Positions 19,845 to 39,753 of a stretch of 64,000 bases of DNA are shown here, in pieces. Source of the stretch: Acinetobacter sp. ANC 3813 (GTDB taxonomy: Bacteria; Pseudomonadota; Gammaproteobacteria; Pseudomonadales; Moraxellaceae). The translations under genes were made by a program, and so were the position numbers. The DNA is taken from contig NZ_NEGK01000004.1 in assembly GCF_002135435.1 (NCBI RefSeq), positions 62,001 to 126,000 of the forward strand, read 5' to 3'. The number at the start of each line of letters is the position of its first letter. The first letter of the stretch is position 1. The notes below the pieces were generated by a model. The model worked only from the letters and a program-made list of their open reading frames with translations. It had not been told where the DNA came from and ran no database searches.

Positions 19845-21287
19845 TTAATATAACTGTTCGACTTTTCCAGTATTGGCTTGATACACCCACTGATGATCAA
19901 ACAGCGCATCATTCATATGATCTATACGGAAATTACCAATGGCTGCTGCATAAAATCCTGCACCCTGCTGCTGCATCTGATCAATCTGCTCCATCAGCTC
20001 TGCGGGCAAAGCCCCCATAATAAAGTCTGAGATAACCAAAACATCGGCATGGCTAAAATTCGGCTGCTGCAGCATGTCCACAGCATGCTGCATGGCAGGA
20101 ATAATGTCTGTACCGCCATGAAAAGATTGGCTTAAAAAATGAATTACCTCATCCAACGCATAATCTTGATTCAAATCTAATGCTGTTAAATTCGTTGAAA
20201 AGTTAATGATGTACATGGGCCGTTTACTCTTCATAGCTTGTATCGCCAAATATAAACTGATGGCTTTGGCAATCAGCTCTGGCTGTCCATGCATCGAACC
20301 GCTGGTGTCTAAACATAAAATCATCGGGCCTTTCTCACCCAATTTTTTACGCGCACGCCGCGGGTCATCAATGACACGGCCGGCCTGCTCACCCTGCAAA
20401 TGAAAACCGAGAATATTAGATTCCAAATATTTTAAATCAAATAAAACCTGCAAATCTGGATCGGCCAGCAGCGCAAGTTCACTTGGCAGCGCCAAATTCA
20501 AATCTTGCGACAAATGAATCCCCGTTATTTCTTCAAAGGCATGTTCATCTGGCATGACCTGCTGCGCCTGCATAGGACTGATATTTAAAATTTTACGCTT
20601 ATATTTTGAGGGCACAGCACTGCCCATTATCCTGCAGAGTTTTTGCAGCGCCTTATCTTGCGCTAAATAACTGCTCCATGTTTCAAACTGCGCGACATCC
20701 TGCGCACTCAGCTCGCCTTTGGAATAGTCTAAAAAGATACCTGTATCTGCACCTAAACTGTCTTTATGCTTGGCCATTTTCTGCAAAGTCGCTAGAAAAT
20801 CTTTAATGTCATCCAAAAAAGCATCGCGCTGCAGTGCCAGCTGTTCAAACTCCCACTGTGCCACTGCTTCTGTCAGCTTGCGCTGCCATTTTTCCTGCAG
20901 TAACTGAAATTGCAGGTTCAGCGCAGCTTTTGACTGCACTTCATTTTGCTGAAGTTGCCACAAATCACTAAAAACAGGCATGCCCAAACTACGCTGAAAT
21001 TCTTGATACTGCTCATTCATCTGGGTAAATTCAGCTTCAGTAAGCGCAGATTTTTCAAGCCATGCTTCCAGCTGCAGCTGTACGGCTTGATAAGGATGCT
21101 GTTGATCTAAACTGTTTTTGGCTTGATAGGCCCAAGTATGCACTTTCTCGTCTAATTTTTTAGCGGCTTTTTCATCATCCAGCCAGTGCTTCAAACTAGA
21201 TTGACGCAGCTCCTCATACAGCTGATCAGTAACTGCCGTCAAAGCCTTTGAAGTCTGACGCGCAGACTGCAGCTTTAACTTCGGCAT
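19845..21287 (-). CDS. viaA: VWA-domain protein, ViaA-like
   Basis: The 480-residue protein has a helical N-terminal two-thirds and a C-terminal von Willebrand factor A domain with the MIDAS motif DTSGSMHG, a downstream GGTDI threonine and VISDF aspartate. Length and architecture match ViaA of E. coli (about 480 residues), the partner that stimulates the RavA ATPase. In E. coli the pair has been linked to respiratory complexes and aminoglycoside sensitivity. Its start overlaps the end of ravA by 13 nt, so the two are translated together. Confidence 0.87.
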   Translation of the reverse strand: MPKLKLQSARQTSKALTAVTDQLYEELRQSSLKHWLDDEKAAKKLDEKVHTWAYQAKNSLDQQHPYQAVQLQLEAWLEKSALTEAEFTQMNEQYQEFQRSLGMPVFSDLWQLQQNEVQSKAALNLQFQLLQEKWQRKLTEAVAQWEFEQLALQRDAFLDDIKDFLATLQKMAKHKDSLGADTGIFLDYSKGELSAQDVAQFETWSSYLAQDKALQKLCRIMGSAVPSKYKRKILNISPMQAQQVMPDEHAFEEITGIHLSQDLNLALPSELALLADPDLQVLFDLKYLESNILGFHLQGEQAGRVIDDPRRARKKLGEKGPMILCLDTSGSMHGQPELIAKAISLYLAIQAMKSKRPMYIINFSTNLTALDLNQDYALDEVIHFLSQSFHGGTDIIPAMQHAVDMLQQPNFSHADVLVISDFIMGALPAELMEQIDQMQQQGAGFYAAAIGNFRIDHMNDALFDHQWVYQANTGKVEQLY

Positions 21288-22819
21288 AACTGTTCCAAAC
21301 GCTGACAGTCTTGGCGCTGTAACTCATAGCGCTGCAGCGTTTGTTCGAGCTGAATTTTGAGCTTGTCCGTATCTGCCTGCGCGGTAAAATCTGAATCAAA
21401 ATCTATAAATTCTGCTTCTAAGCGCTGCTGTAAAACAGCATAATCTTCGCTCAATTTATTTTGCAGGCCTTGTATTTCTTGCAGCAGTTCATACTTCACT
21501 TGCGCTGAAAGCTGTGTGCGGGCACTGCCTTTCGTGTACTTAATATAAGGTGTAACCACTTCTTCTAAGCCGTAGTAACCGCCTTTTAAAGTACACTGCC
21601 GTCCGCCATTAAAATTGCAAACAATGCCTCGAATTTCCTCACCGCTCTCATCTACCGCAAAGAAATCTTTTTTGCTGTCCATTTTATCCAGCTCTAAATA
21701 CAGCACTTTATCTTGATAATGATGATCCAAATTGGTCACTGCTTTTAAATACTCGCGCCCGCGGATGAGATAGCTCTCATAGACATCTTCGGTATAATAA
21801 AAATGATTCAGGATGCGCTGTTCAATATCTTCTTTCTGCGCAATGCTGCCAGCTAAGTCCAAGTCTGAATCTAAACCGATATCAAGAATCACCTGCTCAA
21901 TCATGTCATTTACATAGGAAATATCTTCGATCTGATTCCATAAACAATGCTTCAGCACATAGATATCAATCAAATTAACGGCAGCACGGCCATTTAAAAA
22001 CGCAGCAGCTTTGACCAGATAAGCCGCCCGCTGCCAGCGGCGGTCTGAGATATAAATCTGATGCTCCTCAAAACTGTCGCCTAAACGCTGTTTAATTTCA
22101 TCAAAGATTTCTAAAATGCTATCCGGCAGCTCTACTGCATGAATCTGCTCACGCCACTGCTGCAGTTCGTGCTTTTTAATGCGCAGCGCATCCGCCACCT
22201 CTACTTTTACAGAGCTCGGCTTAGTCTGCAGCAAGGTATGAAAATTCTGCACATGCTGAATCGGCTCCACCACCAAACGCAAAATAAAGCGGTCGTATAA
22301 GGCATCTAAACCTTGATTTGGTTCAGGAATTTCATTCGAAGCACTCATTAGCACCTTCAACGGCACGTGCTGAATCATATCGCCGTTTTTGAAAGTTTTT
22401 TCATTTACCAAAGTCAGCAAGGTATTTAAAATTGCAGGGCTGGCTTTCCAAATTTCATCTAAAAAGACGAAGTCTGCTTTGGGCAGATAATGGTCTGTTT
22501 TACGCAAATACTGATCATCTTTTAAAGCTTTAATGGACACAGGACCAAAAATTTCTTCTGGCGTACTGAAACGGTTCATCAAATATTCAAAATACTCGCC
22601 CACTTCAAAAGCCGAAGCAATCCGTCTTGAAATTAGACTCTTGGCTGTGCCGGGTGCGCCATATAAAAAAGTATTCAGGCCTGCAACGCCTGCCAAAAGA
22701 CTCAGCGCAATAATCTGCTCACGCTCATACATCTGTTCACTGACTTGAGCAATTAATGCATGCATACGCGCTTTCATAAAGGAGACCATTGGCAAATAAT
22801 GCCTATTGTAACGGTGCAT
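21275..22819 (-). CDS. ravA: MoxR-family AAA+ ATPase, RavA-like
   Basis: The protein of about 500-514 residues has Walker A GAPGTAKSL, FEYLMNRFSTPEEIFGP, Walker B VFLDEIWKA, the sensor SASNEIPEP and an arginine-finger region LYDRFILRL, followed by the long RavA-specific C-terminal part. The start is uncertain: the ATG at 22819 has AAGGAG only 1 nt away, while ATGs at 22789 or 22777 give a length nearer the E. coli protein but lack a good site. It is upstream of and overlaps viaA. MoxR/VWA pairs act as chaperone-like machines; the client here is unknown. Confidence 0.88.
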   Translation of the reverse strand: MHRYNRHYLPMVSFMKARMHALIAQVSEQMYEREQIIALSLLAGVAGLNTFLYGAPGTAKSLISRRIASAFEVGEYFEYLMNRFSTPEEIFGPVSIKALKDDQYLRKTDHYLPKADFVFLDEIWKASPAILNTLLTLVNEKTFKNGDMIQHVPLKVLMSASNEIPEPNQGLDALYDRFILRLVVEPIQHVQNFHTLLQTKPSSVKVEVADALRIKKHELQQWREQIHAVELPDSILEIFDEIKQRLGDSFEEHQIYISDRRWQRAAYLVKAAAFLNGRAAVNLIDIYVLKHCLWNQIEDISYVNDMIEQVILDIGLDSDLDLAGSIAQKEDIEQRILNHFYYTEDVYESYLIRGREYLKAVTNLDHHYQDKVLYLELDKMDSKKDFFAVDESGEEIRGIVCNFNGGRQCTLKGGYYGLEEVVTPYIKYTKGSARTQLSAQVKYELLQEIQGLQNKLSEDYAVLQQRLEAEFIDFDSDFTAQADTDKLKIQLEQTLQRYELQRQDCQRLEQLCRS

Positions 22820-23802: not shown

Positions 23803-25428
23803 ATGAATAGTTTTAAAATTGCGCTTGCCCAATTTTCTCCGCATATCGGCGATTTGACTTCAAATGCTGAAAAAATGCTGGAACAGGCAAATCAAGCCAA
23901 AAAACAAAATGCTGATATTATTGTTTTCCCAGAACTGTCTACATTGGGATATCCTGCAGAAGATTTACTGCTGCGCCCAAGCCTGAGCAAACGCACTCAG
24001 CAGGCTTTTAGCACCCTTGCTTCCATTAAAGACATCGTCTTAGTCTTCGGTTTTGTCAATCAAACTGAAGATGGCCAGCGCTTTAACTCCGCTGCCGTGA
24101 TGAAAGATGGGCAAGTTCTTGGAATTTATAATAAACAAAACTTGCCGAATTATAGCGTTTTTGATGAAAAGCGCTATTTCTCTGAAGGCCATCAGCACCT
24201 CGTGTTTGAATATCTGGGCCATAAATTTGGCGTGCTGATTTGTGAAGACGCTTGGTCATTGCCGACTGTTCAGCAATTGTCTCAGCTGAATGTAGAAACT
24301 GCATTGGTGCTGAATGCTTCTCCTTATGAAGTAGGCAAACCGCAGCACCGTGTAGAAACGATGTCTGCACTGGCAAAGCAAATGAATTTGAATTTGGTTT
24401 ACTGTAACCAAGTTGGCGGTCAAGACGATTTAGTCTTTGACGGCACAAGCTTTGTGATTGATAAAGAAGGTCAAGTTGTTCTGCAAGCGCCGAGCTTCCA
24501 AGAAGATCTTTACATCGCAGCTTATGATGCAGACAAAAAAGCATTCAGCAAAGGCTTTGTGGCGCCTGCCTTGGATACTATGGCTGAAATTTATCAAAGC
24601 TTAGTCCTAGCAACACGTGACTATGTGCAGCGTTCAGGTTTTAAAGGCGTAATCCTAGGCCTGTCAGGCGGCATTGACTCTGCAGTAACACTTGCCATCG
24701 CTGCCGATGCAATTGGCGCAGACAAAGTGCAAGCTGTGATGATGCCTTATACCTATACTGCGCAAATCAGCGTTGAAGATGCAGCTGAACAGGCTAAAAA
24801 TATGGGGGTGACTTTTGGTATTGCCGAAATTAACCCAATCGTATCAAGCTTTATGCAGACCCTTTATCCATTCTTTGGCAATGCGCCAGCAGATGCGACT
24901 GAAGAAAACTTGCAAGCGCGTTCACGCGGTACACTGCTGATGGCGCTGTCGAATAAATTCGGCAACCTTGTGCTGTCTACCGGCAACAAGTCTGAATTGT
25001 CTGTCGGTTACTGCACACTGTATGGCGATATGGTCGGCGGTTTTGCTGTGCTGAAAGATGTCTATAAAACCATCGTCTTTGAGTTGGCAAAATACCGCAA
25101 CAGCATCTCTGAAAAGCCAGTGATTCCAGAGCGTGTGATTACCCGCCCGCCTTCTGCTGAGCTTCGCCCAGACCAAAAAGATCAGGACTCACTGCCAGCT
25201 TATGATGTATTGGATGCAATTTTGTATGCTTACATTGAAGAAGACTTAAGCCAAGACGATATTATTGCCAAAGGCTTTGATGCTGAAGTCGTGGCTAAAG
25301 TGATCCGCTTAGTTGATTTCAATGAATATAAACGCCGTCAAGGCGCAATTGGCCCGCGCATCAGTTCGCGCGCTTTCAGCCGTGAACGCCGTTATCCAAT
25401 TATTAATGGCTGGAAACCAGGCATTTAA
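23803..25428 (+). CDS. nadE: Glutamine-dependent NAD+ synthetase
   Basis: The 541-residue two-domain enzyme makes NAD+ from deamido-NAD+ using ATP and glutamine. The N-terminal nitrilase-type glutaminase domain shows the Glu (FPELSTLGYP), Lys (NKQNLPNY) and Cys (LICEDAW) triad; the C-terminal synthetase domain has the ATP pyrophosphatase loop GLSGGIDSAV, STGNKSE and RPPSAELRPDQKDQDSLP. It stands alone, between its leader region and a strong terminator. Confidence 0.97.
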   Translation: MNSFKIALAQFSPHIGDLTSNAEKMLEQANQAKKQNADIIVFPELSTLGYPAEDLLLRPSLSKRTQQAFSTLASIKDIVLVFGFVNQTEDGQRFNSAAVMKDGQVLGIYNKQNLPNYSVFDEKRYFSEGHQHLVFEYLGHKFGVLICEDAWSLPTVQQLSQLNVETALVLNASPYEVGKPQHRVETMSALAKQMNLNLVYCNQVGGQDDLVFDGTSFVIDKEGQVVLQAPSFQEDLYIAAYDADKKAFSKGFVAPALDTMAEIYQSLVLATRDYVQRSGFKGVILGLSGGIDSAVTLAIAADAIGADKVQAVMMPYTYTAQISVEDAAEQAKNMGVTFGIAEINPIVSSFMQTLYPFFGNAPADATEENLQARSRGTLLMALSNKFGNLVLSTGNKSELSVGYCTLYGDMVGGFAVLKDVYKTIVFELAKYRNSISEKPVIPERVITRPPSAELRPDQKDQDSLPAYDVLDAILYAYIEEDLSQDDIIAKGFDAEVVAKVIRLVDFNEYKRRQGAIGPRISSRAFSRERRYPIINGWKPGI

Positions 25429-27505: not shown

Positions 27506-30500
27506 TTAATACACCAGATGGTTATTGTCCAGCAATTCCTGCAAACCGATGTCCGTGTTTTTCAGCGTCAGCAGTTCCACTTTATTGTAGGTTTTGCCTG
27601 CAGTACCGTCACGGTCAATACTGATGACCGTATTGCCTTTACCGTCAGCCGCCACCGAAATAAACTGGCCGATATTGCTCTTATCTATATTTTGACCTTG
27701 CAATAATTTGCTCACATCAATCTTGTCACCTTCAGCTTTCTTGAAGTCATTCCAGCTATCATGGCCATTGCCGCCTGCTGCATCTGAGCTATTGAGTAAT
27801 TTAAAGATCAGTGTATCTGCACCGGCTTTAGATGTCACAGTATCATTGCCGTTTGTGCTGGTGATCTTATCGCTGCCAATGCTGCCTGTATAGTTCAGAC
27901 CAGCACTGATGGTTAACGATGCCACAGAAGAATCTCCATTTGGCGCAACCAATTTATAGCTAAAGTCTTCGAGCGTACCCGATACCGCTTTGCCGTCAGT
28001 TACGCTGTAGCTATAGCTGCCGTCCGATTTAATGGTCAGCTGGCCATGATCACCCTGAACTGTAAGACCCGCTTTGCTTACAGCCGCATATGTTTTGCCG
28101 CCATCTTTGGAGATATACAGATCCGTGTACTTCGACGCCAAAACATCTGTACCGCTGCCATTGTTATCTGTAAAGATATTGCCTTTAGCTGCTGTACCTG
28201 TTGATTTCGCAGTAAAGTCTTCAAGATCGGTAATTGTACGGCTAATGGTGGCATTCACTTTTCCAGCAAAGCTTAAGCCTGTATTGGTTAGCGCTTTAAT
28301 GGTGTATTCGCCAGCTTTTAAACCGCTGATCGATAAGCTATTGCCATTTGGCAGCAAAGTAATCACATCAATTAAAGTCGATGCGCTTGTGGTTGCGACC
28401 AATTTGCCAACCTTGTCATAAACATTGATAACTGTACCGCCCAGCAAGGATGCGACTTGGGTCGAGCCGAAGCTGATTTTCACATCTTCAAACGTGCCAT
28501 CCGCTACCGTAAATTTGCTTGTGCCTGATTTGGTATTGCCCACACCAAATAGCCAACTGTAGCTGATTGCAGAAGCGCTGGCTGAACTCACCGCATTCGA
28601 TGCATCGAAACTGACCGAATTGCTGTTGTCTGTTGCCACAACGGTTGTTGCGTCTGCTTTAGGATGGGCAGCATCCCACTCAACAGCCAAGTCACTTTGT
28701 GTGCCAATGTGAATAATTAAGCTGGCTGTATCTGTTTTGCCTGTCGCCGGATCCGTTACTGTATAGCCGAAGACTTCCGATTTTCCGATATTTACAGCGT
28801 CTGCATTTGGCTTATAGCTATAGGTGCCATCTTTAGCAATGGTTAATACGCCATGATCACCGACAATGACTGTTGAACCCGATGCATTCAAGCTTTGGCC
28901 ATTCACAGCAGTCACTGCAGAACCCGCAGGAACAGAGTCTTTGCCATAAATGCTGTCATGATCAGTCACAACATTGCCATGCGATTCTGTAACACCGCTG
29001 ACTGCAGGATCTTTCGATGTATCCTTAATGGCCAATGCAAGACTCGCATTAACACTGGTCAGGAATCCAATTTTTGCACCGCCAGTGAATTCAAACTTAT
29101 ACGTCCCCGTTTGCAGGTTGTTTGCTTTTACTTGCGTGCCTTCATTGAAGAGTCCCAGTAAATCAAGCAGTCCGGCATCTTTATTAGCACCGATCAGTTT
29201 CCATGAACCATCTGATCCTTTTACATACAGCTTCATAATTGCTATGTCAAACAAGTTCACTAAAGAGCTTGTCGATACTGAAATCACCGCATTGCCGACT
29301 TGATTTTCACCAATCGTAAATTCACTCGAATAAGTTTCTGCGCATATATCTACAACCGATTTATGGCTGAACAGTTTAATGCTGCTGTTTTCAGTCACTG
29401 GATAATCGAAATTAATTGATGCAGATACCAAGTTATCTGCTGCATCCAGCTGTACGTTTGGCGCTTTAGCACCCGTTTTTCCAGACTCGCCGCCTGCATC
29501 GCTGGCGCTGACCAGCAAGGTTTGGCCGTCGCTATATGCCGAAGGCAGCTTAATGCTGTAGTTTCCACTGGCATCAGATTTGCCTTGAGCAATCACCGTT
29601 TTACCGTCTTGCGCATACACCTTAATATCAGCGTTGGCTTCTGCAGTACCGCTGATCGAATCGCCCTTTGCATTAAAATTTGCTACAGGCGCATTTGGCG
29701 CATATAAATCAGGGGCTTGTACAGGGGTGGCAAGCGATTCACCGCCAGGATCTTTCGCTGTGACTTTTACTGATTCGCCATCCACCAAAGCTGGATTCAG
29801 CGCTACAGTATATTTGCCGTCTGCACCAGCAACAGCAGTACCGATCACTGTTGTACCTTTGCTGCCGCCATAAACAGTAATATCTGCATTTGGCTCAGTT
29901 ACACCATTAACTGATTTACCGTCCACAGCCACTAGGGCTGTTGGCGCATCTGGCGCATATAGATCAGGAGCGGCTGCTTTCACTGGAGCTGATTCACCAC
30001 CTGGATCTCGAGCTGTGACATTCACATTTTCGCCGTCAACTTGAGCTGGTTTAAGCGTTACTGAATACTGACCAGAAGCATTGGCAGTACCTGTGCCCAG
30101 CACAGTTTTACCATCATCTGTGTAAACAGTAATTGCAGAACCCGCTTGTGCAACACCTGTAACAAACCCACCCGTTTTCGCATCGACTTGCGCAGTTAGC
30201 ATGCTTGGAGCAGTCGTATCCGCCAAGCTGTCAGATGCAGTTCCCGCATTGCCCGCTGGATCTTTCGCAGTTGCTGTATAAGTACCTTCCGCAGCAGTTG
30301 CTGGAACTATTGCTGTGTATGTACCATCTGGATTGACTGTTACAGGAACATCTTTACCGTTTGGATCTTTCAGTGTCACTGTAGAACCTGGCTCGGATTT
30401 ACCTGTAATGGTTGCAGAACCGTCTGGATTTGAAACCACATCCATGGTTACAGCTGGAGCAATGTTGTCATCCAGTTCATCTGTTGCTGTGCCTGCATTG

Positions 30501-33500
30501 CCCGCTGGGTCAGTTGCAGTCGCTGTGTACGCGCCTTCTGCCGCTGGCGCTGGAACAGTCGCTGTAAATGTACCGTCTGGATTGACCGTGACAGGTACGT
30601 CTTTACCGTTCGGATCTTTCAGCGTTACTGTAGAACCTATTTCAGTTCTACCTGTTACCGTCGCTGTACCGTCAGTATTTGGCGTTACATCTAGGTTCAC
30701 AATCACTGGCGCAACATTGTCATCTAAATTCGCTGTTGCACTTGCAGTGTTGCCTACTGCATCTGTAGTTGCAGCAGTATAAATGCCTTCAGTCGCTGGC
30801 GCTGGTGCTGTCGCACTGAATGTACCGTCTGCATTTACTGTAACTGTCAAGTTATTGCCATTCGGATCTTTTACTGTCACCGTAGCACCTGCTTCTGCCT
30901 TGCCTGATACAGTTGCTGTGCCATCTGGATTCGCTGTAACAGTCAATGCATCAAGCTGAGTAACCGTATCTACCGTTACGCTTGTTGAGTCTGGAGCGCT
31001 CAGGTTACCCGCACGATCTTTCGCAACCGCTTCTACAGTATACGTACCATCCGCAAGATTAGGTGCTGCATAAGTCCAGCTGCCATCTGCAGCTACTGCC
31101 GCTGCACCGCTTGCCAGTACTTTATCAGTTGCATCTTTTACAGTCACAGTCACTGTCGCATTGGCTTCTGTTTTACCAGAGAAGCTTGGTGTTGCATCAC
31201 TTACTGCGCCTGCATCATCAATATCAATGGTCGGTTTAACCGTATCGATAATGAACTTGATGTTTGCTGGTGCGCTTGTTACGCCATAAATATCTTTCGA
31301 AATCGCTTCTAAACGGAATTGGCCATCTGCAAGCGGTTTAGCTGGTGTGTATGACCAACGGCCTGTCGCTGTATTCAACACTGCCAGACCTGACTCAACA
31401 ATATTATTTGAAGAGTCATATAGGTTGATTTTCACTTCCACGCTGTTTGCAGAAGAACCATTGAACGTCTGTTTTGGATTATTCGTTGCAGGCGGTAACG
31501 GCTCTGCAGCAAGTAAAGTACGCGCCGCGAATTTCATTACTGGAGCTGCAGCAAAGAAGTCAAATGGATCAATTTCCACTGTTGGAGGATAGACAATGGT
31601 ATCCAGCTTCACTTCAAGGCCTTTATTTCCAGATACATCTTCATATGAACCCGCTGAAATTTCAAAGTTGACAGGAGTATTCACACCGACTGTCGGAACT
31701 TGAACTGCACCTTTCCAAGTGCCATCGGCTTGCTCTGTTAAGTCCTTAACTATAGCGCCAGTTACTTTCAAATCAGAAGGATCAAAGTCCGTTACTTTCT
31801 CGCTAAAGCTAACAATCACATTACCTTGAGTATCTAAAGTAATGGCTGCAGAAGGTGCTGTTGAATCTACAGATTGCTGTACGCTTGAACCTTTACCTGC
31901 ATTGCCTGCAAGGTCTGTATAGCTGCTGTCTGCTAAATCTACTTTTACAGAACCGCCTGTGTTCCCCGCTGTTGTGACTTTCGCTGTCCATGTCCCATTG
32001 GTTTGCTGTGTAAGAGCGCTGACTGTACCGCCAGTAACAACTAAGTCAGACAATGTGAAATCTTTCACTACTTCAGTGAATGTAATCGTCAGATTTCCAG
32101 CCTTATCCAACACCATTGAAGAGGTCGGTGCAGTCGTATCCGTACCCGGAACAGTCAACGAGCCTGATGCTGCTTTACCTGCATTACCCGCATTGTCTGT
32201 ATATGAACCTGCATCAATCGTAATATCGACTTTGCCTGGCGCACCTGCAGGATCATTGGATACTGCATGGCCTTTCCATGAACCATCTGGTTGCTGAGTC
32301 AAGCCACTGATTGTCCCGCCTGCAACCTTAACATCAGCCGCATCAAAACCTTTTACTGGCTCGCTGAAGCTAATAGTTACATCACCATTCGGCGCGATGC
32401 TAATCGTAGCTTCTGGTGGCGTTGAATCCACACTTGGAACATCTTTAGAAGCCGTTGAACCTTTACCTTTATTGCCCGCAAGGTCTGTATAGCTGTTGTC
32501 TGCAATATCTACAGTGACTTTGCCCAATGCACCCGTGTTGCCAGCAGCAACAACTTTGCCAGTCCAAGAACCATCTGGCTGCTGTGTTAAGCCGCTGACT
32601 GTACCGCCAGTCACTTTAACGTCATTCGCATCAAAGCCTTTAACCGCTTCGCTGAAAGTGATTTTCAGGTTGCCCGCTGCATCTAATGTAGTCACTGACG
32701 TTGGCGCTGCTGTATCAATGCTCGGAACAGTTTGTACTGCTGTTGCACCCTTACCTAAGTTGCCTGCAAGGTCTGTATAGCTATTCGCCACTACTTCAAC
32801 TGCGACACTGCTTGATGCACCTGTATTGCCATTTGCTGCAACTTTACCTGTCCAAGTACCGTCTGGCTGTGCAGTCAAGCTGATCAGAGTACCGCCTGCT
32901 ACTTTCACGTCAGTCGCATCAAAGCCTTTTACTGGCTCACTGAAACTAATCGTGATATCGCCATTTGGACTCAATGTAATAATTGATGATGGTGCAGTAA
33001 TATCGATGCTTGGCACTGTTTGTGACTGAGATGCTGCTGTACCAAGATTGCCTGCAGTGTCAGTATATGAACCCGCAGTAATCGAAAGGTCTACTTTAGC
33101 TGGTGTGCCTGTCGGGTCATTTGCAACGACATGACCTTTCCAAGAGCCGTCTGGCTGTTCAACCAGATCCTGTAATGTACCGCCTGCAACTTTCAAATCA
33201 GACTTGTCAAAGCCTTTCACAGGCTCGCTGAAACTAACCGTTACATTTCCTGCAGCATCAACAGCAATAGTCGCTGAAGGCGCAGTAGTGTCTAGACTTG
33301 GTACAGATTGTGCAACTGTAGCTTCTTTACCAGGGTTACCCGCATTGTCTGTATATGATCCAGCTGGAATTTTTAAATCTACTAGGCCTGGTGAGCCTGT
33401 TGTGCCATTTGCAACGACTTGGCCTTTCCATGAACCGTCCGGCTGTTGGGTCAAGCCAGTCAATGTACCGCCTGTAACTTGCACATCCTGAGCATCAAAA

Positions 33501-36500
33501 CCTTTTACTGGCTCACTGAAGCTGATTGTGACTTCACCATTTGCCCCTACCGTAATCGTTGCCGATGGTGGAGTCGTATCTACACTTGGAATATCTTTAG
33601 AAGCCGTTGAACCTTTACCATTATTGCCTGCAAGGTCTGTATAGCTATTATCTGCAACGTCTACCGTAACTTTACCCAATGCACCCGTGTTGCCAGCAGC
33701 AACAACTTTGCCAGTCCAAGAACCATCTGGCTGCTGTGTTAAGCCGCTGACTGTACCGCCAGTCACTTTAACGTCATTCGCATCAAAGCCTTTAACCGCT
33801 TCGCTGAAGCCAATCGTTAAATTGCCATTTGCATCCAGAACAATCGCTGAAGTTGGTGCTGTCGTATCCACACTAGGAATACTTTCAACAACAAACCCAC
33901 CCTTGCCTGCATTACCAGCAAGGTCTGTATATGTGCCATCTGCAATAGAAACGACAACATTCGCCGCTGCGCCTGTTGCGCCATTCGCAACGACTTTGCC
34001 AGTCCAACTGCCATCCGGCTGCTGTGTTAAGCCACTGATAGAACCATTCGATACTTTCACATCAGTTGCATCAAAACCTTTCACTGGCTCACTGAATTTG
34101 ATAACCAGATTACCATTCGCATCTAGCGTCAATGTTGGTGTAGGCCCTGTCGTATCTACGCTTGGTACAGATTGAGCTGCTGTCGCTGCTGTACCTGGAT
34201 TACCTGCGATATCTGTATATGATGCTGCTGGGATATCTAGTTTTACCGAACCAGAAGCACCTGTTGCGCCATCAGCAACAACTTTGCCAGTCCAGCTGCC
34301 ATCAGGTTGCTGTACAAGATTAAGCAGCTTACCGCCTGTCACTTTGACATCATTAGGATCAAAGCCTTTAACCGCTTCGCTGAATGTCACAACAACATTG
34401 CCGTCAGCATCCACTGTAATCGCTGCATTAGGTGCTGTTGTATCTACGCTTGGCACATTCGCACCAATCACACTTGAACCTTTACCTGCATTGCCAGCAA
34501 GGTCTGTGTATGAACCGTCAGCAAGAACTACATCTATTTGACCAGTCGTGCCACTTGTACCGTCAGCAACAACTTGACCTTTCCAAGAGCCATCAGGCTG
34601 CTGAGTTAAGCCAACCAATGTGCCGCCTTGGACTGTCACATCCGATTGATCAAAGCCATTGACAGTTTCACTGAAAATGATCACAACTTCGCCTGTTGGA
34701 CTAACAGTCAATGTCGATGTTGGTACAACTGTATCTACTTGTGCTGTGCCTGTATCTTCAGCACCAATGTTGCCTGCTTTATCTCGAGCAGAAGCTGTGA
34801 CTTGATAACTGCCATCTGGAAGAGCAGCTTTAACCGTATAATTCCACTTACCGTCTGAAGCCACTGTCGCTGTACCCGTTTCAATCACTTTGCCCGCTGC
34901 ATCTTTTACTTCTACTGTGACTGTAGCAGTTGGCTCATTGACCTTGCCTTTTAGCTCTGGTGTCGCATCATTGGTTAAACCAACATCATCAACTTCAACC
35001 ACTGGTGCTTGAATATCGACAATAAACGCTTTAGCAGCTGGCGCACTTTGGTTACCGGCGGCATCTTTAGAAATCGCTTGCAACATGTAGTAGCCTTCAG
35101 CCAAGTCATGTGAAGGTGTAAATGTCCATTTACCTGTAGCGGTATCGAGTTTTGCCAAGCCTGAATCAACATTTTTGCCAGATTCATCCTGTAGATAAAT
35201 CATGACCTCAGTACTTTTTGTAGAACTGCCTGAGAAGGTTGGTTTGATTTGATTGGTCTGCGGCAGCGTAGTGGATGCTGTGCTCATCAGCATACGAGCT
35301 GCTGCTGCACCAAACAAGTTATCAATGTCTACTGTAGGCGGAATAGTATCGATCTCTAAACCAGAGTCCACTGCTGCATTTGACGCGTTTCCTGCTGGGT
35401 CTTTAGCCACAGCTTCGACAGTATATTTACCATCGGCCAAGGCTGGAGACGGAACAAATGACCACTCATTATTTGAATCGATTTGTGCTGAACCGCTTGC
35501 AACTGTTTTGCCCGTATCATCTTTCACAACAACAGTTACTGCCGAACCAGCCTCCATTGTGCCTTTAATAACAGGCGCAACCGCATTTGTAATTGCCAAT
35601 GGTTCAATGGTGACTGCAGGAGGCGTGGTATCGACAGTCAATCCGCCATTTGAAGCAGATGCTGTATTACCCGCAGTATCTTTCGCTACAGCTTCTGCTG
35701 TGTAACTGCCATCAGGAAGATCGCTTGCTGGAGCGTATGTCCAATTACCGCTTGCATCTACAATTGCATCACCTGCGCTAACAACTGCGCCAGAAGCATC
35801 TTTGACTTGTACATGTACAGATGCGCCACTTTCAGTTTTACCGCTAATAGTTGGTGTCGCGTCATTGGTCAATGCCAATGGATAAACGCTAACCGTTGGC
35901 AAAGTTGTATCTACAATTAAGCCATTTGCTGTTGCATTTGCTGTCGTGCCAGACGGTAATTTTGCAGTCGCATCAACAGTGTATGTGCCTTCAGGCAAAG
36001 TACCTGCTGTGTAGCTCCATTTACCAGATGAATCAGTGGTTGCAGTACCTGTATTAATGGTTGCGCCTGATGCATCCTTAATAACGACAGTTACCACAGC
36101 ATTGCTGGCTGTATTACCTGTAATGTCTGGGGTCGTGTCATTCGTTGGCTTCAATGGATCAATTGTGACCGTTAGGCCAGCCGTATCAACCACAAGGCCT
36201 GTATCTGTTGCAACACCCTTATTGCCTGCTGGATCTTTAGCTGTCGCTTCAACAGTATAGCCGCTGTCTGGAAGTGAGTTTGTAGGTGTATATGACCAGT
36301 TACCGCTGCCATCTACAGTCGCTGGACCTGATTCAACAGTTTTGCCAGCTTGGTCTTTAACAGCCACTTCAACGGTTGAGCCTGCTTCCGTTTTACCGGT
36401 TACAGCAGGTGTGGCGTCATTGGTCGGTGCTAAAGGATTAATGCTTACAACTGGAGGCGTTAAGTCTACAGACAAGCCTGAATCAGTTGCACTTCCCTTG

Positions 36501-37786
36501 TTTCCAGCTGGATCAGTCGCTGTTGCTTCTACTTTATAAGCGCCTTCAGGAAGAGTTTTAGTTGGCGTATAGGTCCAGTTGCCGCTACTGTCAACTGTTG
36601 CATTCCCTGCATCAACAACATTACCCGCAGCATTTTTAATCTCAACCTTAACTGTCGCACCTGCTTCAGTTTTACCTTTGATGTCAGGCGTTACATCATT
36701 CGTTGGTTTTAAAGCTTCAATTGAAACCGCAGGAAGCGTGGTATCAACTGTTAAGCCTGTATCTGTCACAGTCTTATCGTTGCCTGCAGGATCTTTTGCC
36801 GTTACTTCAACAGTAAGCGGGCCTTCTGGAAGCGGCTTGCTTGGTGTATAAGTCCAGTCGCCATTACCATCAACAACACCTGGGCCTTTGTCAACTATAT
36901 TGCCATTTTTGTCTTTAATGACAACTTCAATTTGAGCGCCCAGATCAGTTTCACCTCCAATTGTTGGCGTGTTATCACCTGTAGGCGCAAGAGGATCAAT
37001 TGTGACGTTGGGGTCTTTAGTGTCAATTGTAAAATCTAAAGCATCAGATTTTGGTCCTTCTACCCCCTTCACAGTTTGGCTAACGCTTATAGAATGCGCA
37101 CCATCTGTTAAATCCTTCGCAACTTCTACGCTCCATGTACCGTCTGCTTGAGCGGTGGTTGACGCAATCAATTGACCGCCATCATATACTTTAATTTCTG
37201 CACCAGCTTCTGCGCCCGAGCCTGACACTACAGGAGTTTGATCATTTGTGACTGCACCTGCTGAAATTTTGCCGACTTTCGGCGCCTGATTATCTGCAAC
37301 TTCAAAGGCAGTCAGTTTAGACGGGACTGCTGGAGCAGGTGTTTCCTTGTCTTTATCATCAGACCCATTGCTTGCCGCAGCGCCAATCAGTCCAGCACCG
37401 CCTGCGCCAAGCGCCCAAGGCAAAATTACACCGGTTAATGAATCTTTATACAGCAGCGGCTCAATTTCAGCCAAAGGCTGATACTGAATCACATCGGCAA
37501 TGGCGCCCGTGCTGTCAGTAAATTTGGCCCAATATAAACTGCCGTCCTGCCCTTCAAAAACCAAACTGTTGTCTGAACTGGCTGCATTAAAATAATTTTC
37601 AACGACAATGCTTTCGCCGTTTTTAAGGTTAATGATTGCGTGATCACCGCTGCGGGTAATTGAGGCCACATCTTCTTTAGGGGCTTTAATAACAACAACT
37701 GAATTTTCAGTTAAGCTGACATTATTCGAATCGACTTGATTCAATAAGGTGTGACTTTCCTTAGAAATTACGGAAATTTGTGTCAT
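27506..37786 (-). CDS. BapA/Bap-type giant surface adhesin, type I secreted
   Basis: This single uninterrupted 3426-codon frame encodes a biofilm-associated-type adhesin. Residues 1 to about 150 are a BapA-type prefix domain ending in a Gly/Ala-rich segment. About 160-1020 are Ig-like repeats with TNDxTPxxxGKTEAG and AKDPAGN motifs. About 1021-2066 hold 11 tandem units with FSExVKGFDxxDVKV and SYTDxAGN. Further Ig-like units follow, including three with VTVNPDGT and three ending DPGGES. About 2930-3300 contain two VCBS/BapA-like domains (GDHGxLTI, DGTYSY). The C-terminus (about 3299-3426) has GNDTVTSKAGADTLIF and DGTAGKTY, typical of type I secretion targets. It resembles Bap-like proteins of Acinetobacter; which one cannot be told. 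AGAGAG precedes the ATG. Confidence 0.93.
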   Translation of the reverse strand: MTQISVISKESHTLLNQVDSNNVSLTENSVVVIKAPKEDVASITRSGDHAIINLKNGESIVVENYFNAASSDNSLVFEGQDGSLYWAKFTDSTGAIADVIQYQPLAEIEPLLYKDSLTGVILPWALGAGGAGLIGAAASNGSDDKDKETPAPAVPSKLTAFEVADNQAPKVGKISAGAVTNDQTPVVSGSGAEAGAEIKVYDGGQLIASTTAQADGTWSVEVAKDLTDGAHSISVSQTVKGVEGPKSDALDFTIDTKDPNVTIDPLAPTGDNTPTIGGETDLGAQIEVVIKDKNGNIVDKGPGVVDGNGDWTYTPSKPLPEGPLTVEVTAKDPAGNDKTVTDTGLTVDTTLPAVSIEALKPTNDVTPDIKGKTEAGATVKVEIKNAAGNVVDAGNATVDSSGNWTYTPTKTLPEGAYKVEATATDPAGNKGSATDSGLSVDLTPPVVSINPLAPTNDATPAVTGKTEAGSTVEVAVKDQAGKTVESGPATVDGSGNWSYTPTNSLPDSGYTVEATAKDPAGNKGVATDTGLVVDTAGLTVTIDPLKPTNDTTPDITGNTASNAVVTVVIKDASGATINTGTATTDSSGKWSYTAGTLPEGTYTVDATAKLPSGTTANATANGLIVDTTLPTVSVYPLALTNDATPTISGKTESGASVHVQVKDASGAVVSAGDAIVDASGNWTYAPASDLPDGSYTAEAVAKDTAGNTASASNGGLTVDTTPPAVTIEPLAITNAVAPVIKGTMEAGSAVTVVVKDDTGKTVASGSAQIDSNNEWSFVPSPALADGKYTVEAVAKDPAGNASNAAVDSGLEIDTIPPTVDIDNLFGAAAARMLMSTASTTLPQTNQIKPTFSGSSTKSTEVMIYLQDESGKNVDSGLAKLDTATGKWTFTPSHDLAEGYYMLQAISKDAAGNQSAPAAKAFIVDIQAPVVEVDDVGLTNDATPELKGKVNEPTATVTVEVKDAAGKVIETGTATVASDGKWNYTVKAALPDGSYQVTASARDKAGNIGAEDTGTAQVDTVVPTSTLTVSPTGEVVIIFSETVNGFDQSDVTVQGGTLVGLTQQPDGSWKGQVVADGTSGTTGQIDVVLADGSYTDLAGNAGKGSSVIGANVPSVDTTAPNAAITVDADGNVVVTFSEAVKGFDPNDVKVTGGKLLNLVQQPDGSWTGKVVADGATGASGSVKLDIPAASYTDIAGNPGTAATAAQSVPSVDTTGPTPTLTLDANGNLVIKFSEPVKGFDATDVKVSNGSISGLTQQPDGSWTGKVVANGATGAAANVVVSIADGTYTDLAGNAGKGGFVVESIPSVDTTAPTSAIVLDANGNLTIGFSEAVKGFDANDVKVTGGTVSGLTQQPDGSWTGKVVAAGNTGALGKVTVDVADNSYTDLAGNNGKGSTASKDIPSVDTTPPSATITVGANGEVTISFSEPVKGFDAQDVQVTGGTLTGLTQQPDGSWKGQVVANGTTGSPGLVDLKIPAGSYTDNAGNPGKEATVAQSVPSLDTTAPSATIAVDAAGNVTVSFSEPVKGFDKSDLKVAGGTLQDLVEQPDGSWKGHVVANDPTGTPAKVDLSITAGSYTDTAGNLGTAASQSQTVPSIDITAPSSIITLSPNGDITISFSEPVKGFDATDVKVAGGTLISLTAQPDGTWTGKVAANGNTGASSSVAVEVVANSYTDLAGNLGKGATAVQTVPSIDTAAPTSVTTLDAAGNLKITFSEAVKGFDANDVKVTGGTVSGLTQQPDGSWTGKVVAAGNTGALGKVTVDIADNSYTDLAGNKGKGSTASKDVPSVDSTPPEATISIAPNGDVTISFSEPVKGFDAADVKVAGGTISGLTQQPDGSWKGHAVSNDPAGAPGKVDITIDAGSYTDNAGNAGKAASGSLTVPGTDTTAPTSSMVLDKAGNLTITFTEVVKDFTLSDLVVTGGTVSALTQQTNGTWTAKVTTAGNTGGSVKVDLADSSYTDLAGNAGKGSSVQQSVDSTAPSAAITLDTQGNVIVSFSEKVTDFDPSDLKVTGAIVKDLTEQADGTWKGAVQVPTVGVNTPVNFEISAGSYEDVSGNKGLEVKLDTIVYPPTVEIDPFDFFAAAPVMKFAARTLLAAEPLPPATNNPKQTFNGSSANSVEVKINLYDSSNNIVESGLAVLNTATGRWSYTPAKPLADGQFRLEAISKDIYGVTSAPANIKFIIDTVKPTIDIDDAGAVSDATPSFSGKTEANATVTVTVKDATDKVLASGAAAVAADGSWTYAAPNLADGTYTVEAVAKDRAGNLSAPDSTSVTVDTVTQLDALTVTANPDGTATVSGKAEAGATVTVKDPNGNNLTVTVNADGTFSATAPAPATEGIYTAATTDAVGNTASATANLDDNVAPVIVNLDVTPNTDGTATVTGRTEIGSTVTLKDPNGKDVPVTVNPDGTFTATVPAPAAEGAYTATATDPAGNAGTATDELDDNIAPAVTMDVVSNPDGSATITGKSEPGSTVTLKDPNGKDVPVTVNPDGTYTAIVPATAAEGTYTATAKDPAGNAGTASDSLADTTAPSMLTAQVDAKTGGFVTGVAQAGSAITVYTDDGKTVLGTGTANASGQYSVTLKPAQVDGENVNVTARDPGGESAPVKAAAPDLYAPDAPTALVAVDGKSVNGVTEPNADITVYGGSKGTTVIGTAVAGADGKYTVALNPALVDGESVKVTAKDPGGESLATPVQAPDLYAPNAPVANFNAKGDSISGTAEANADIKVYAQDGKTVIAQGKSDASGNYSIKLPSAYSDGQTLLVSASDAGGESGKTGAKAPNVQLDAADNLVSASINFDYPVTENSSIKLFSHKSVVDICAETYSSEFTIGENQVGNAVISVSTSSLVNLFDIAIMKLYVKGSDGSWKLIGANKDAGLLDLLGLFNEGTQVKANNLQTGTYKFEFTGGAKIGFLTSVNASLALAIKDTSKDPAVSGVTESHGNVVTDHDSIYGKDSVPAGSAVTAVNGQSLNASGSTVIVGDHGVLTIAKDGTYSYKPNADAVNIGKSEVFGYTVTDPATGKTDTASLIIHIGTQSDLAVEWDAAHPKADATTVVATDNSNSVSFDASNAVSSASASAISYSWLFGVGNTKSGTSKFTVADGTFEDVKISFGSTQVASLLGGTVINVYDKVGKLVATTSASTLIDVITLLPNGNSLSISGLKAGEYTIKALTNTGLSFAGKVNATISRTITDLEDFTAKSTGTAAKGNIFTDNNGSGTDVLASKYTDLYISKDGGKTYAAVSKAGLTVQGDHGQLTIKSDGSYSYSVTDGKAVSGTLEDFSYKLVAPNGDSSVASLTISAGLNYTGSIGSDKITSTNGNDTVTSKAGADTLIFKLLNSSDAAGGNGHDSWNDFKKAEGDKIDVSKLLQGQNIDKSNIGQFISVAADGKGNTVISIDRDGTAGKTYNKVELLTLKNTDIGLQELLDNNHLVY
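29450..30960 (-). repeat. Adhesin repeat arrays C and D (three plus three units)
   Basis: Three units with DPNGKDVPVTVNPDGT and ATDPAGNAGTA are followed by three with xITVYxxDGKTVxxxG and DPGGES ending APDLYAP. Unit length is about 80-90 codons. Boundaries are approximate. Confidence 0.75.
31590..34726 (-). repeat. Adhesin repeat array B (11 units of about 96 codons)
   Basis: Eleven tandem units of about 288 bp each encode xxGNVxVxFSExVKGFDxxDV, LTQQPDGSWxGKVVA and SYTDxAGN, ending VPSVDTTxP. Units 2-5 and 6-9 match best in register, pointing to a four-unit (1152-bp) higher-order repeat. A block at 32523-32656 is identical to 33675-33808. Confidence 0.85.
34726..37300 (-). repeat. Adhesin Ig-like repeat array A (about nine units)
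   Basis: About nine units of roughly 90-110 codons share a pattern of VxIxPLxPTNDxTP, GKTEAGxxVxVxVKD, GNWTYTP and VEATAKDPAGN, ending VDTTxP. They are diverged, so this block looks older than array B. The eighth unit carries an inserted Ala/Met-rich stretch. Boundaries are approximate. Confidence 0.8.
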
Positions 37787-38253: not shown

Positions 38254-39753
38254 TTAAAAATTATCTGGATTTTCCAGACGCTTCACTTCCTGCACACGCT
38301 CTGGATTATGTACCGCAGCCACGCCATCAGCCGCTTTTTCATCAATTAAGTTTTCAGGTTTATACACCGTAATGGTTTCATTGCCCAGCGCATCTTCACC
38401 TACGATGTACTTAAAGCCTTTACGGTTCATTTTATGGCACATGCGCTGATACCAGCCTTTAAATCCTTTGGTTTCTTCATTCGGATTGTAATAAAACGCA
38501 TTCATCACAGCTGGCAGGCCTAAACCGCAGACAATCCCTGACAGCAATACCGCAATAAAGGTATAGCCAATTAAGATACTGCTGTATTCTCCCAGTTCCG
38601 GCACGTTGGCGACCGCCAAAATCAGCGCCAATGAAATGCCGCCGCGCACCCCGCCCCATGACAAGATCGCTAAACTGCCGTTATAGCTTTTATGGCGGAA
38701 ACTCGGAAAGAATGCAAAAGCCATATAATTGGCCGCAAAGCGTGAAGCATGCAGAATCAGGAAGGCAACTATGCCGCCTAAAATCAGGCTGATGCTGAGA
38801 TCCAGAATAAACAGTTCCAACCCAATCAAGGTAAATAAGAAAGAATTGATAATGCCTTCTACCGTGTGCCAGAAATGATTGACCTCACGGATTTCACGCG
38901 CTTCTAAAATTTCCTTCCAGCGGTTGCCGACAATTAAGCCGCCAATCACGCAGGCAATCGGCGCAGAAGCATGCGCCAGCAAAGCCACCAAATATGACCC
39001 GCAGGCCAATAGCGCAGTGGTCAGAATCAGCGATTCCATTTCATGCTTGCCGCGCAAAATACGCAGGATGGCCTGACCAAAGCCCCAGCCAATAATCACA
39101 GCCACCACAATTTCATACAGCAGCGTTTCCAGCACGCCAATAATCGTGACATGCGCACCCTGCAGCACATTAATCAATGTCATGAATAAGGCTATACACA
39201 TGGCATCATTAAATAAGGACTCCCCTTCCAGCTTCACCATTAAATGATGCGGCGCACGCACCGAACTTAATACGCCTTTAATGCCAATGGGGTCAGTCGC
39301 GCCCAAAGCTGCTCCCAGCAGCAGCAGCACCAGCAAATCCACATGCTGGCCAATCAAGAATTGATAGCCGTACAGCGCCAAACCAAACAGCGTTGCACAC
39401 AGCACCAAAGCAATACTGGCTAAAATACTGATGGGTTTCCAATAACTGCGCAAATCTGAAACTTTGAACTTCAAGGCGGAAGACGTCAGAATGAAACAAA
39501 TCACCCCATTAATTAAAAAATCATAAAAATCAATATGACGTACAGCTTCTTCAATATTATGAATATTTATGGTGATGAATTGATTGCCGCTCAGCAAGCT
39601 GGCGCCCCATTGCAGAATAAAGACAAAAATTGCAGAAACCAGCGGCACGCCAATCGCTTGCGGGAAGCCTAAAATCCGCTTGTTAAAGATCGTAGTTGCA
39701 ATGGATAATGCAAAAATGACTGTAAAAACCTGTAAGAAAAAAAAGTTTCCCAT
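38254..39753 (-). CDS. Cation/proton antiporter (CPA1, NhaP type)
   Basis: The 499-residue inner-membrane protein has about 12 hydrophobic helices. LGAALGATDPIGIKGVLSS carries the TDP signature, and the segment KLEGESLFNDAMCIALF carries the ESLFND motif of CPA1 Na+/H+ antiporters. A hydrophilic cytoplasmic tail of about 85 residues follows the last helix. It should exchange Na+ (or K+) for H+ in pH and salt homeostasis. It is monocistronic and diverges from a small membrane protein gene. Confidence 0.9.
   Translation of the reverse strand: MGNFFFLQVFTVIFALSIATTIFNKRILGFPQAIGVPLVSAIFVFILQWGASLLSGNQFITINIHNIEEAVRHIDFYDFLINGVICFILTSSALKFKVSDLRSYWKPISILASIALVLCATLFGLALYGYQFLIGQHVDLLVLLLLGAALGATDPIGIKGVLSSVRAPHHLMVKLEGESLFNDAMCIALFMTLINVLQGAHVTIIGVLETLLYEIVVAVIIGWGFGQAILRILRGKHEMESLILTTALLACGSYLVALLAHASAPIACVIGGLIVGNRWKEILEAREIREVNHFWHTVEGIINSFLFTLIGLELFILDLSISLILGGIVAFLILHASRFAANYMAFAFFPSFRHKSYNGSLAILSWGGVRGGISLALILAVANVPELGEYSSILIGYTFIAVLLSGIVCGLGLPAVMNAFYYNPNEETKGFKGWYQRMCHKMNRKGFKYIVGEDALGNETITVYKPENLIDEKAADGVAAVHNPERVQEVKRLENPDNF

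Follow-up and report, generated by a model that had tools for sequence, protein, structure and literature searches.

The window, which is the whole stretch of 64,000 nucleotides that was analysed, contains the gene of a giant adhesin. Its open reading frame lies at 27506-37786 on the minus strand and encodes 3426 amino acids. It contains a BapA_N prefix, domains of the families Big_13, Big_12 and Big_6, a GNV-type C-terminal region, and a type I secretion target. The N terminus matches Pfam BapA_N (E 2.3e-36, 124.6 bits, cut-off 27), and the protein is above the cut-offs of the NCBIfam models adhes_GNV_Cterm (359.2 bits, cut-off 180) and T1SS_VCA0849 (55.4 bits, cut-off 17.6). It has the features of a large adhesin of the BapA/Bap/LapF type, namely the BapA prefix, the C-terminal region of the GNV type and the target for type I secretion. 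The gene is found at about 89.5-99.8 kb inside a 380-kb contig of a draft assembly with 21 contigs, and genes for NAD synthase and an Na/H exchanger flank it at 23803-25428 and 38254-39753. No secretion genes were named among the nine neighbours of the adhesin that were scanned, and nothing in the genome scored above the cut-off of the HlyB model, whose two top hits were frames of 715 amino acids on other contigs. A MoxR-type AAA protein adjoins a VWA-domain protein at 19845-22819, and the two resemble parts of a MoxR-vWA system.

Within the protein is an array of 11 Big_12 Ig-like units at 31598-34738 on the minus strand. Pfam Big_12 matches 11 stretches of the protein, in agreement with the eleven tandem units given in the preliminary description, and from its domain families the array is presumed to form a stalk that carries a surface adhesin's outer part away from the cell, as in other adhesins of this type. 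U1 (34448-34738) has 97 residues, U2 to U9 have 96 each, and U10 and U11 (31598-31870) have 91. Eight of the units, all on the minus strand like the others, belong to two types that follow the order A-B-B-A twice, in U2-U5 and again in U6-U9. Type A comprises U2 (34160-34447), U5 (33296-33583), U6 (33008-33295) and U9 (32144-32431), while type B comprises U3 (33872-34159), U4 (33584-33871), U7 (32720-33007) and U8 (32432-32719). In both cross-species trees U2, U5, U6 and U9 are on one side and U1, U3, U4, U7 and U8 on the other. A structure model of U4 made from the 11 units (mean pLDDT 96.6) predicts seven strands and contributes strand positions only; a PDB search with it gave no match at E 0.001 or better, the best being 3.9e-3.

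The eleven domains appear old, with much divergence between them, and such a history is usual for a protein of this kind. Protein identity between neighbouring units is 40.7-68.8%, Tandem Repeats Finder with default settings finds no array in the Big_12 region, and the adhesin gene has no tandem array whose copies are 90% identical over the full period. Mean DNA identity across the whole array is 62.1-62.9% at lags of one to three units and 65.5% at a lag of four. Within U2-U9 the corresponding values are 63.7-65.3% and 71.6%, with 4/8 as the top contributor. The preliminary description had matched units 2-5 one to one with units 6-9 and called units 4 and 8 nearly identical. The latter is certainly so, as U4 and U8 share 87.8% of DNA and 88.5% of protein positions, and the type order repeats as well, but the correspondence does not extend to all pairs. 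U5/U9 are 72.2% identical in DNA, while U2/U6 (63.5%) and U3/U7 (62.8%) are at background. U2 is nearer to U4, U8 and U5, and U3 is nearer to U4, U5, U8, U1 and U2. Neighbours as closest relatives, the pattern named there as contrary to a four-unit repeat, are not general among the units either.

The near identity of U4 and U8 includes an exact tract of 134 bp. It occupies 33675-33808 in U4 (unit bases 64-197) and 32523-32656 in U8, on the minus strand in both. Within it 44 of 44 codons are identical, silent positions included, and the next longest exact repeat in the adhesin gene is 27 bp. In the flanks, one side has 25 differences between U4 and U8 in 63 bases, and the other has 10 in 91, which forms a shoulder of 89% identity. 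When the gene is compared with itself at a lag of 1152 bp in segments of 48 bp, identity is 52-81% through U2 and U3, up to 100% inside U4, 83-94% on to the end of U4, and 54-88% through U5. A permutation test was applied with the longest run of identical variable sites as its statistic, a measure that cannot detect pairs similar along their full length. None of 2,000 permutations reached the 92 variable sites of the U4/U8 run. The second-highest score belongs to U1/U10, with 16 sites in its run (global p 0.0025), and none of the other window pairs listed is below 0.05. In the relatives G010, G023 and G019 several pairs pass 0.05, the strongest being units 3 and 10 of G019 (p 0.001), and all of these runs are shorter than that of U4/U8.

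The tract is probably a recent patch in an old array, made between U4 and U8 by out-of-register recombination of a gene-conversion-like kind. The identity at silent positions, the sharp edge on one side, and the background identity beyond it point to copying by out-of-register homologous recombination, and from these features we infer the mechanism. The array would be an old run of Ig-like stalk domains in which several unit identities predate the split from G010. A recent event of the gene conversion type would then have copied at least 134 bp, the unit middle, and perhaps about 225 bp between the two units. The template may have been the sister chromosome or DNA that entered from another cell. 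Inspection by eye of the middle segments of relatives gave nothing decisive on which of U4 and U8 was copied. A single patch leaves two things unexplained, namely that the A-B-B-A order repeats and that the unit ends favour a lag of four; in addition, 5/9 is raised as well as 4/8.

The same adhesin is found at the same place in related genomes, and its units there suggest that the array is old. A search of 175 genomes of the genus, the source genome included, gave 28 that matched the array; one contig scan for relatives gave a single locus, on a cyanobacterial contig, at 23% identity. NAD synthase and the Na/H exchanger also border the adhesin gene, or its two contig-broken halves, in G010, G023, G019 and G164. 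Across these four genomes the flanking NAD synthase is 88.5-92.8% and the Na/H exchanger 93.0-94.2% identical, while the N-terminal part of the adhesin is 67-76% and the C-terminal part 65-67% identical. The arrays of G019 and G164 are split across contigs. Complete orthologs at the checked place, with one genome per species, have 11 units in G010 and 18 in G023, compared with 11 in the window. Beyond the loci whose place was compared, G002 has 5 units and G107 has 3. The Big_12 array starts at residue 1017 in the window and at residue 765 in the G010 open frame (L078); as both have 11 units, much of the length difference is N-terminal of the array (34739-37786). The length steps of 1152 bp between strains that had been predicted find no support, since the gene has no full-period array at 90% or more and the seven additional units of G023 are not a multiple of four.

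Several units are closer to their counterparts in another species than to any unit of their own array. U3, U6 and U7 are 71, 73 and 74% identical to the same-numbered unit of G010, and their best matches in their own array are at 67, 68 and 70%, which indicates that these identities predate the split between the window lineage and G010. U3, U5, U6 and U7 are reciprocal best matches with the same-numbered G010 units, as is U1 with a tie in the reverse direction; the match of U5 also ties with U9 at 72%. U8 is 64% identical to unit 8 of G010. Homogenised pairs are present in the relatives too. In G010 units 8/10 are 91% and units 5/9 82% identical. In G023 units two apart are 99-100% identical in units 10-14 (10, 12 and 14; 11 and 13), with 8/10 and 9/11 at 96-98%, and neighbours in this region, the two units of a pair, are about 70% identical in DNA. 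In G002 and G107 neighbouring units are 89-92% identical. Thus copies that are adjacent, two apart and four apart all occur. Two units can be nearly identical at a distance of four with no block duplication behind them.

For the cross-species trees, a total of 69 units was found. A quick tree used 53 of them, omitting 8 from G002 and G107, 6 listed as terminal, and 2 incomplete. A careful tree used 43 units from five genomes and omits further near-duplicates and the window U10. In the quick tree, forcing 3+7, the window U5+U9, or unit 3 of the window with that of G010 gave better scores than the free search, and weight is therefore placed on the careful tree. The pairs had been expected to come out as sisters; in the careful tree 4/8 do (100/99), while 2/6, 3/7 and 5/9 do not. 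Instead U7 joins unit 7 of G010 (100/98), U3 falls with the third unit of both G010 and G164 (93/95), and U9 clusters with units 5 and 16 of G023 and with a pair of G019 units, one of them unit 5 (85/90), not with U5. Forcing U8 together with unit 8 of G010 alone is rejected in the quick tree (p 1.1e-7), as expected, because both have a nearly identical partner within their respective arrays; U8 with G010 units 8 and 10 is not rejected in the careful tree (p-AU 0.235). Trees of the window units are weak: 4/8 appear in 45% (DNA) and 53% (protein) of 100 bootstraps with the long-branched U10 alongside, 5/9 appear at 65% in the DNA tree only, and forcing all four pairs is not rejected at 5% (p-AU 0.057 for DNA, 0.117 for protein).

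A block of four units may have been duplicated long ago, before the species diverged, although we lean against it. The block would have been blurred by mutation and patching, and U4/U8 refreshed recently; this history is compatible with the recent patch. It would account for the type order that occurs twice, although four As and four Bs match at a lag of four by chance in 6 of 70 orders, by arithmetic, so the type register alone is weak. Lag-4 pairing of whole units ranks 2 of 105 possible pairings, and 2 of 15 without 4/8, in DNA and protein alike. With the unit ends only (22 residues at the start and 33 at the end, a cut picked after the data had been seen) it ranks 1 of 105 and 1 of 15, and with the unit middles 4 of 105. 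In G010 the ends rank 11 (DNA) and 13 (protein) of 105, and 1 of 15 without 4/8, while the middles rank first. In the careful tree the same-numbered groups 2+6, 3+7 and 5+9 are not rejected when forced (p-AU 0.476, 0.41 and 0.118), nor is the window U2+U6 (p-AU 0.117), and in the quick tree units 2 and 6 come together at 82. The pair of U7 and G010 unit 7 is placed beside unit 3 of G023 and G019 (89/87); this and the position of U9 fit old 3/7 and 5/9 links, provided that units 3 and 5 of the relatives are the counterparts of U3 and U5. On the other hand, the careful tree places the window U3 outside the U7 group and U5 outside the U9 group. Further, the type order is not common to G010, whose unit 4 is of type A, and the strongest lag in G023 is two units (mean identity 80.2%, compared with 76.8% at four).

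The other explanations of the U4/U8 tract are improbable to differing degrees. A 134-bp repeat could have been misjoined in a draft of 21 contigs, and the G019 and G164 arrays do break across contigs. We regard such an artefact as unlikely, as the gene is interior to its 380-kb contig and both flanks of each tract differ, so that their positions could be fixed by read pairs. Duplication of a four-unit block recently in the window lineage, as had been proposed, would explain why the near identity spans exactly four units and why 5/9 is raised, but it is very unlikely. All four pairs would then be closest at a lag of four and alike over the full period, while 2/6 and 3/7 are at background and no full period is repeated at 90% or more in DNA. 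Identical codons at shared residues number 28 of 60 in 2/6 and 27 of 55 in 3/7, and 16 of 48 to 35 of 61 in the same-numbered pairs of window and G010 units (n=11). Synonymous codons are therefore shared in 2/6 and 3/7 no more than between the two species, and forcing the window U3 and U7 together is rejected in the careful tree (p-AU 0.00086). Of the proposed block duplication only an ancient event is left as possible. That selection or chance has kept U4 and U8 alike with no copying is hardly credible given the identity of all 44 codons at silent positions too, even though the middle is the most conserved part of the unit across 45 units.

Covariation among units suggests that the middle may have moved more freely than the ends. 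In a test with 45 units the unit ends covary with each other (r 0.67) and less with the middle (0.37-0.42), while the two middle segments covary at 0.56. At third codon positions the ends covary with each other at 0.31 and with the middle at 0.16-0.30, and the middle segments at 0.48. Cutting the units into equal quarters gives a less clear picture, both in protein (quarters 1-4 0.59, 1-3 0.58) and at third positions (1-4 0.33, 2-4 0.36, 2-3 0.37). Mean protein distance is 0.29-0.30 in the middle, compared with 0.46 outside it. Swapping of the unit middle in place would yield covariation between the ends, and the U4/U8 tract covers the middle. A freer middle between covarying ends also fits repeated patching without crossover. 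The end covariation could instead reflect contact between end strands in the fold. We offer with considerable doubt the suggestion that the middle, of about 41 residues in strands 3-5 of the predicted fold, is a gene-conversion cassette exchanged between units, with linked ends that set the type. If so, the array would share sequence without neighbouring domains becoming identical.

Real higher-order repeats exist in this adhesin family, and the window gene has none. A survey covered 36 giant adhesin open reading frames (35 from relatives and that of the window), chosen by hand among long open frames, mainly in assemblies with few contigs; the sample is non-exhaustive and the related species in it are not independent. 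Arrays were classed at 90% identity or more over the full period, leaving out as low complexity those with a period below 225 bp or a half-period identity of at least 0.7. Two-domain periods are found in 18 of the 36, of which 13 also have a single-domain period, G025 and G061 also have a longer one, and four (G026, G046b, G002 and G100) are doubtful because of their copy number, the likeness of their half-periods or the lack of motifs. Another 13 have single-domain periods and none of two domains, with a longer one as well in G047b and G158. G055 has a long period only, and four have no array by these classes: the window gene, G087a, and the low-complexity G016b and G096. In total, five of the 36 have longer periods, at 1536 bp in G025, 1938 in G047b, 2295 in G055, 1086 in G061, and 819 in G158. 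Among these, G025 (L093-L094) has 8.6 copies at 99%, G055 (L100-L101) 6.8 copies at 99%, and G047 (L099) 4.2 copies at 98%. Of 39 two-domain arrays, 28 split cleanly, with 32-44% protein identity between the domains in 27 and 60% in one; four were not measured and seven split badly (31-74%). Two-domain pairing is no rule, because 26 of the 36 carry single-domain arrays at 90% or more.

Comparison with known systems places the window adhesin near the Bap and BLP1 proteins of Acinetobacter, and judging by the adhesin families and the literature this is probably also the genus of the window. It resembles them in its N-terminal motif, stalk of Ig-like repeats, C terminus like that of type I-secreted proteins, and size, which is close to the 3044-3356 amino acids reported for BLP1 (PMC4647330), a likeness to the published description. 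In that description Bap carries two or four copies of the EFG module, which are multi-domain repeats (De Gregorio et al. 2015, PMC4647330). It differs from Acinetobacter Blp2, whose NCBIfam model gives 506.2 bits, below the equivalog cut-off of 750. Among the titles listed by searches of open-licence papers with a limited set of terms, none concerns gene conversion between the Ig-like units of such adhesins. The G023 ortholog has the same gene position and unit family, and it carries a true two-unit higher-order repeat (L079, G023:C1:2569300-2583200) with a period of 579 bp and 4.4 copies at 97%, an array of two-domain units that is absent from the window. Length change by recombination is likelier in orthologs and sister adhesins of this kind, with two-domain or longer repeats at 92-99% DNA identity. 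Like the Periscope Proteins (PMC8201768), the window adhesin is predicted to be a surface protein with a stalk of tandem folded domains. As described there, those proteins differ in their number of repeats and are detected by tandem repeats that exceed 50 residues and are at least 80% identical; the neighbouring units of the window adhesin, at 40.7-68.8%, are below this level. The Periscope paper raises the puzzle of how near-identical arrays avoid misfolding (PMC8201768; PMC4660218). Two-domain pairs bear on it, as they provide long matching DNA for recombination while keeping neighbouring domains unlike.
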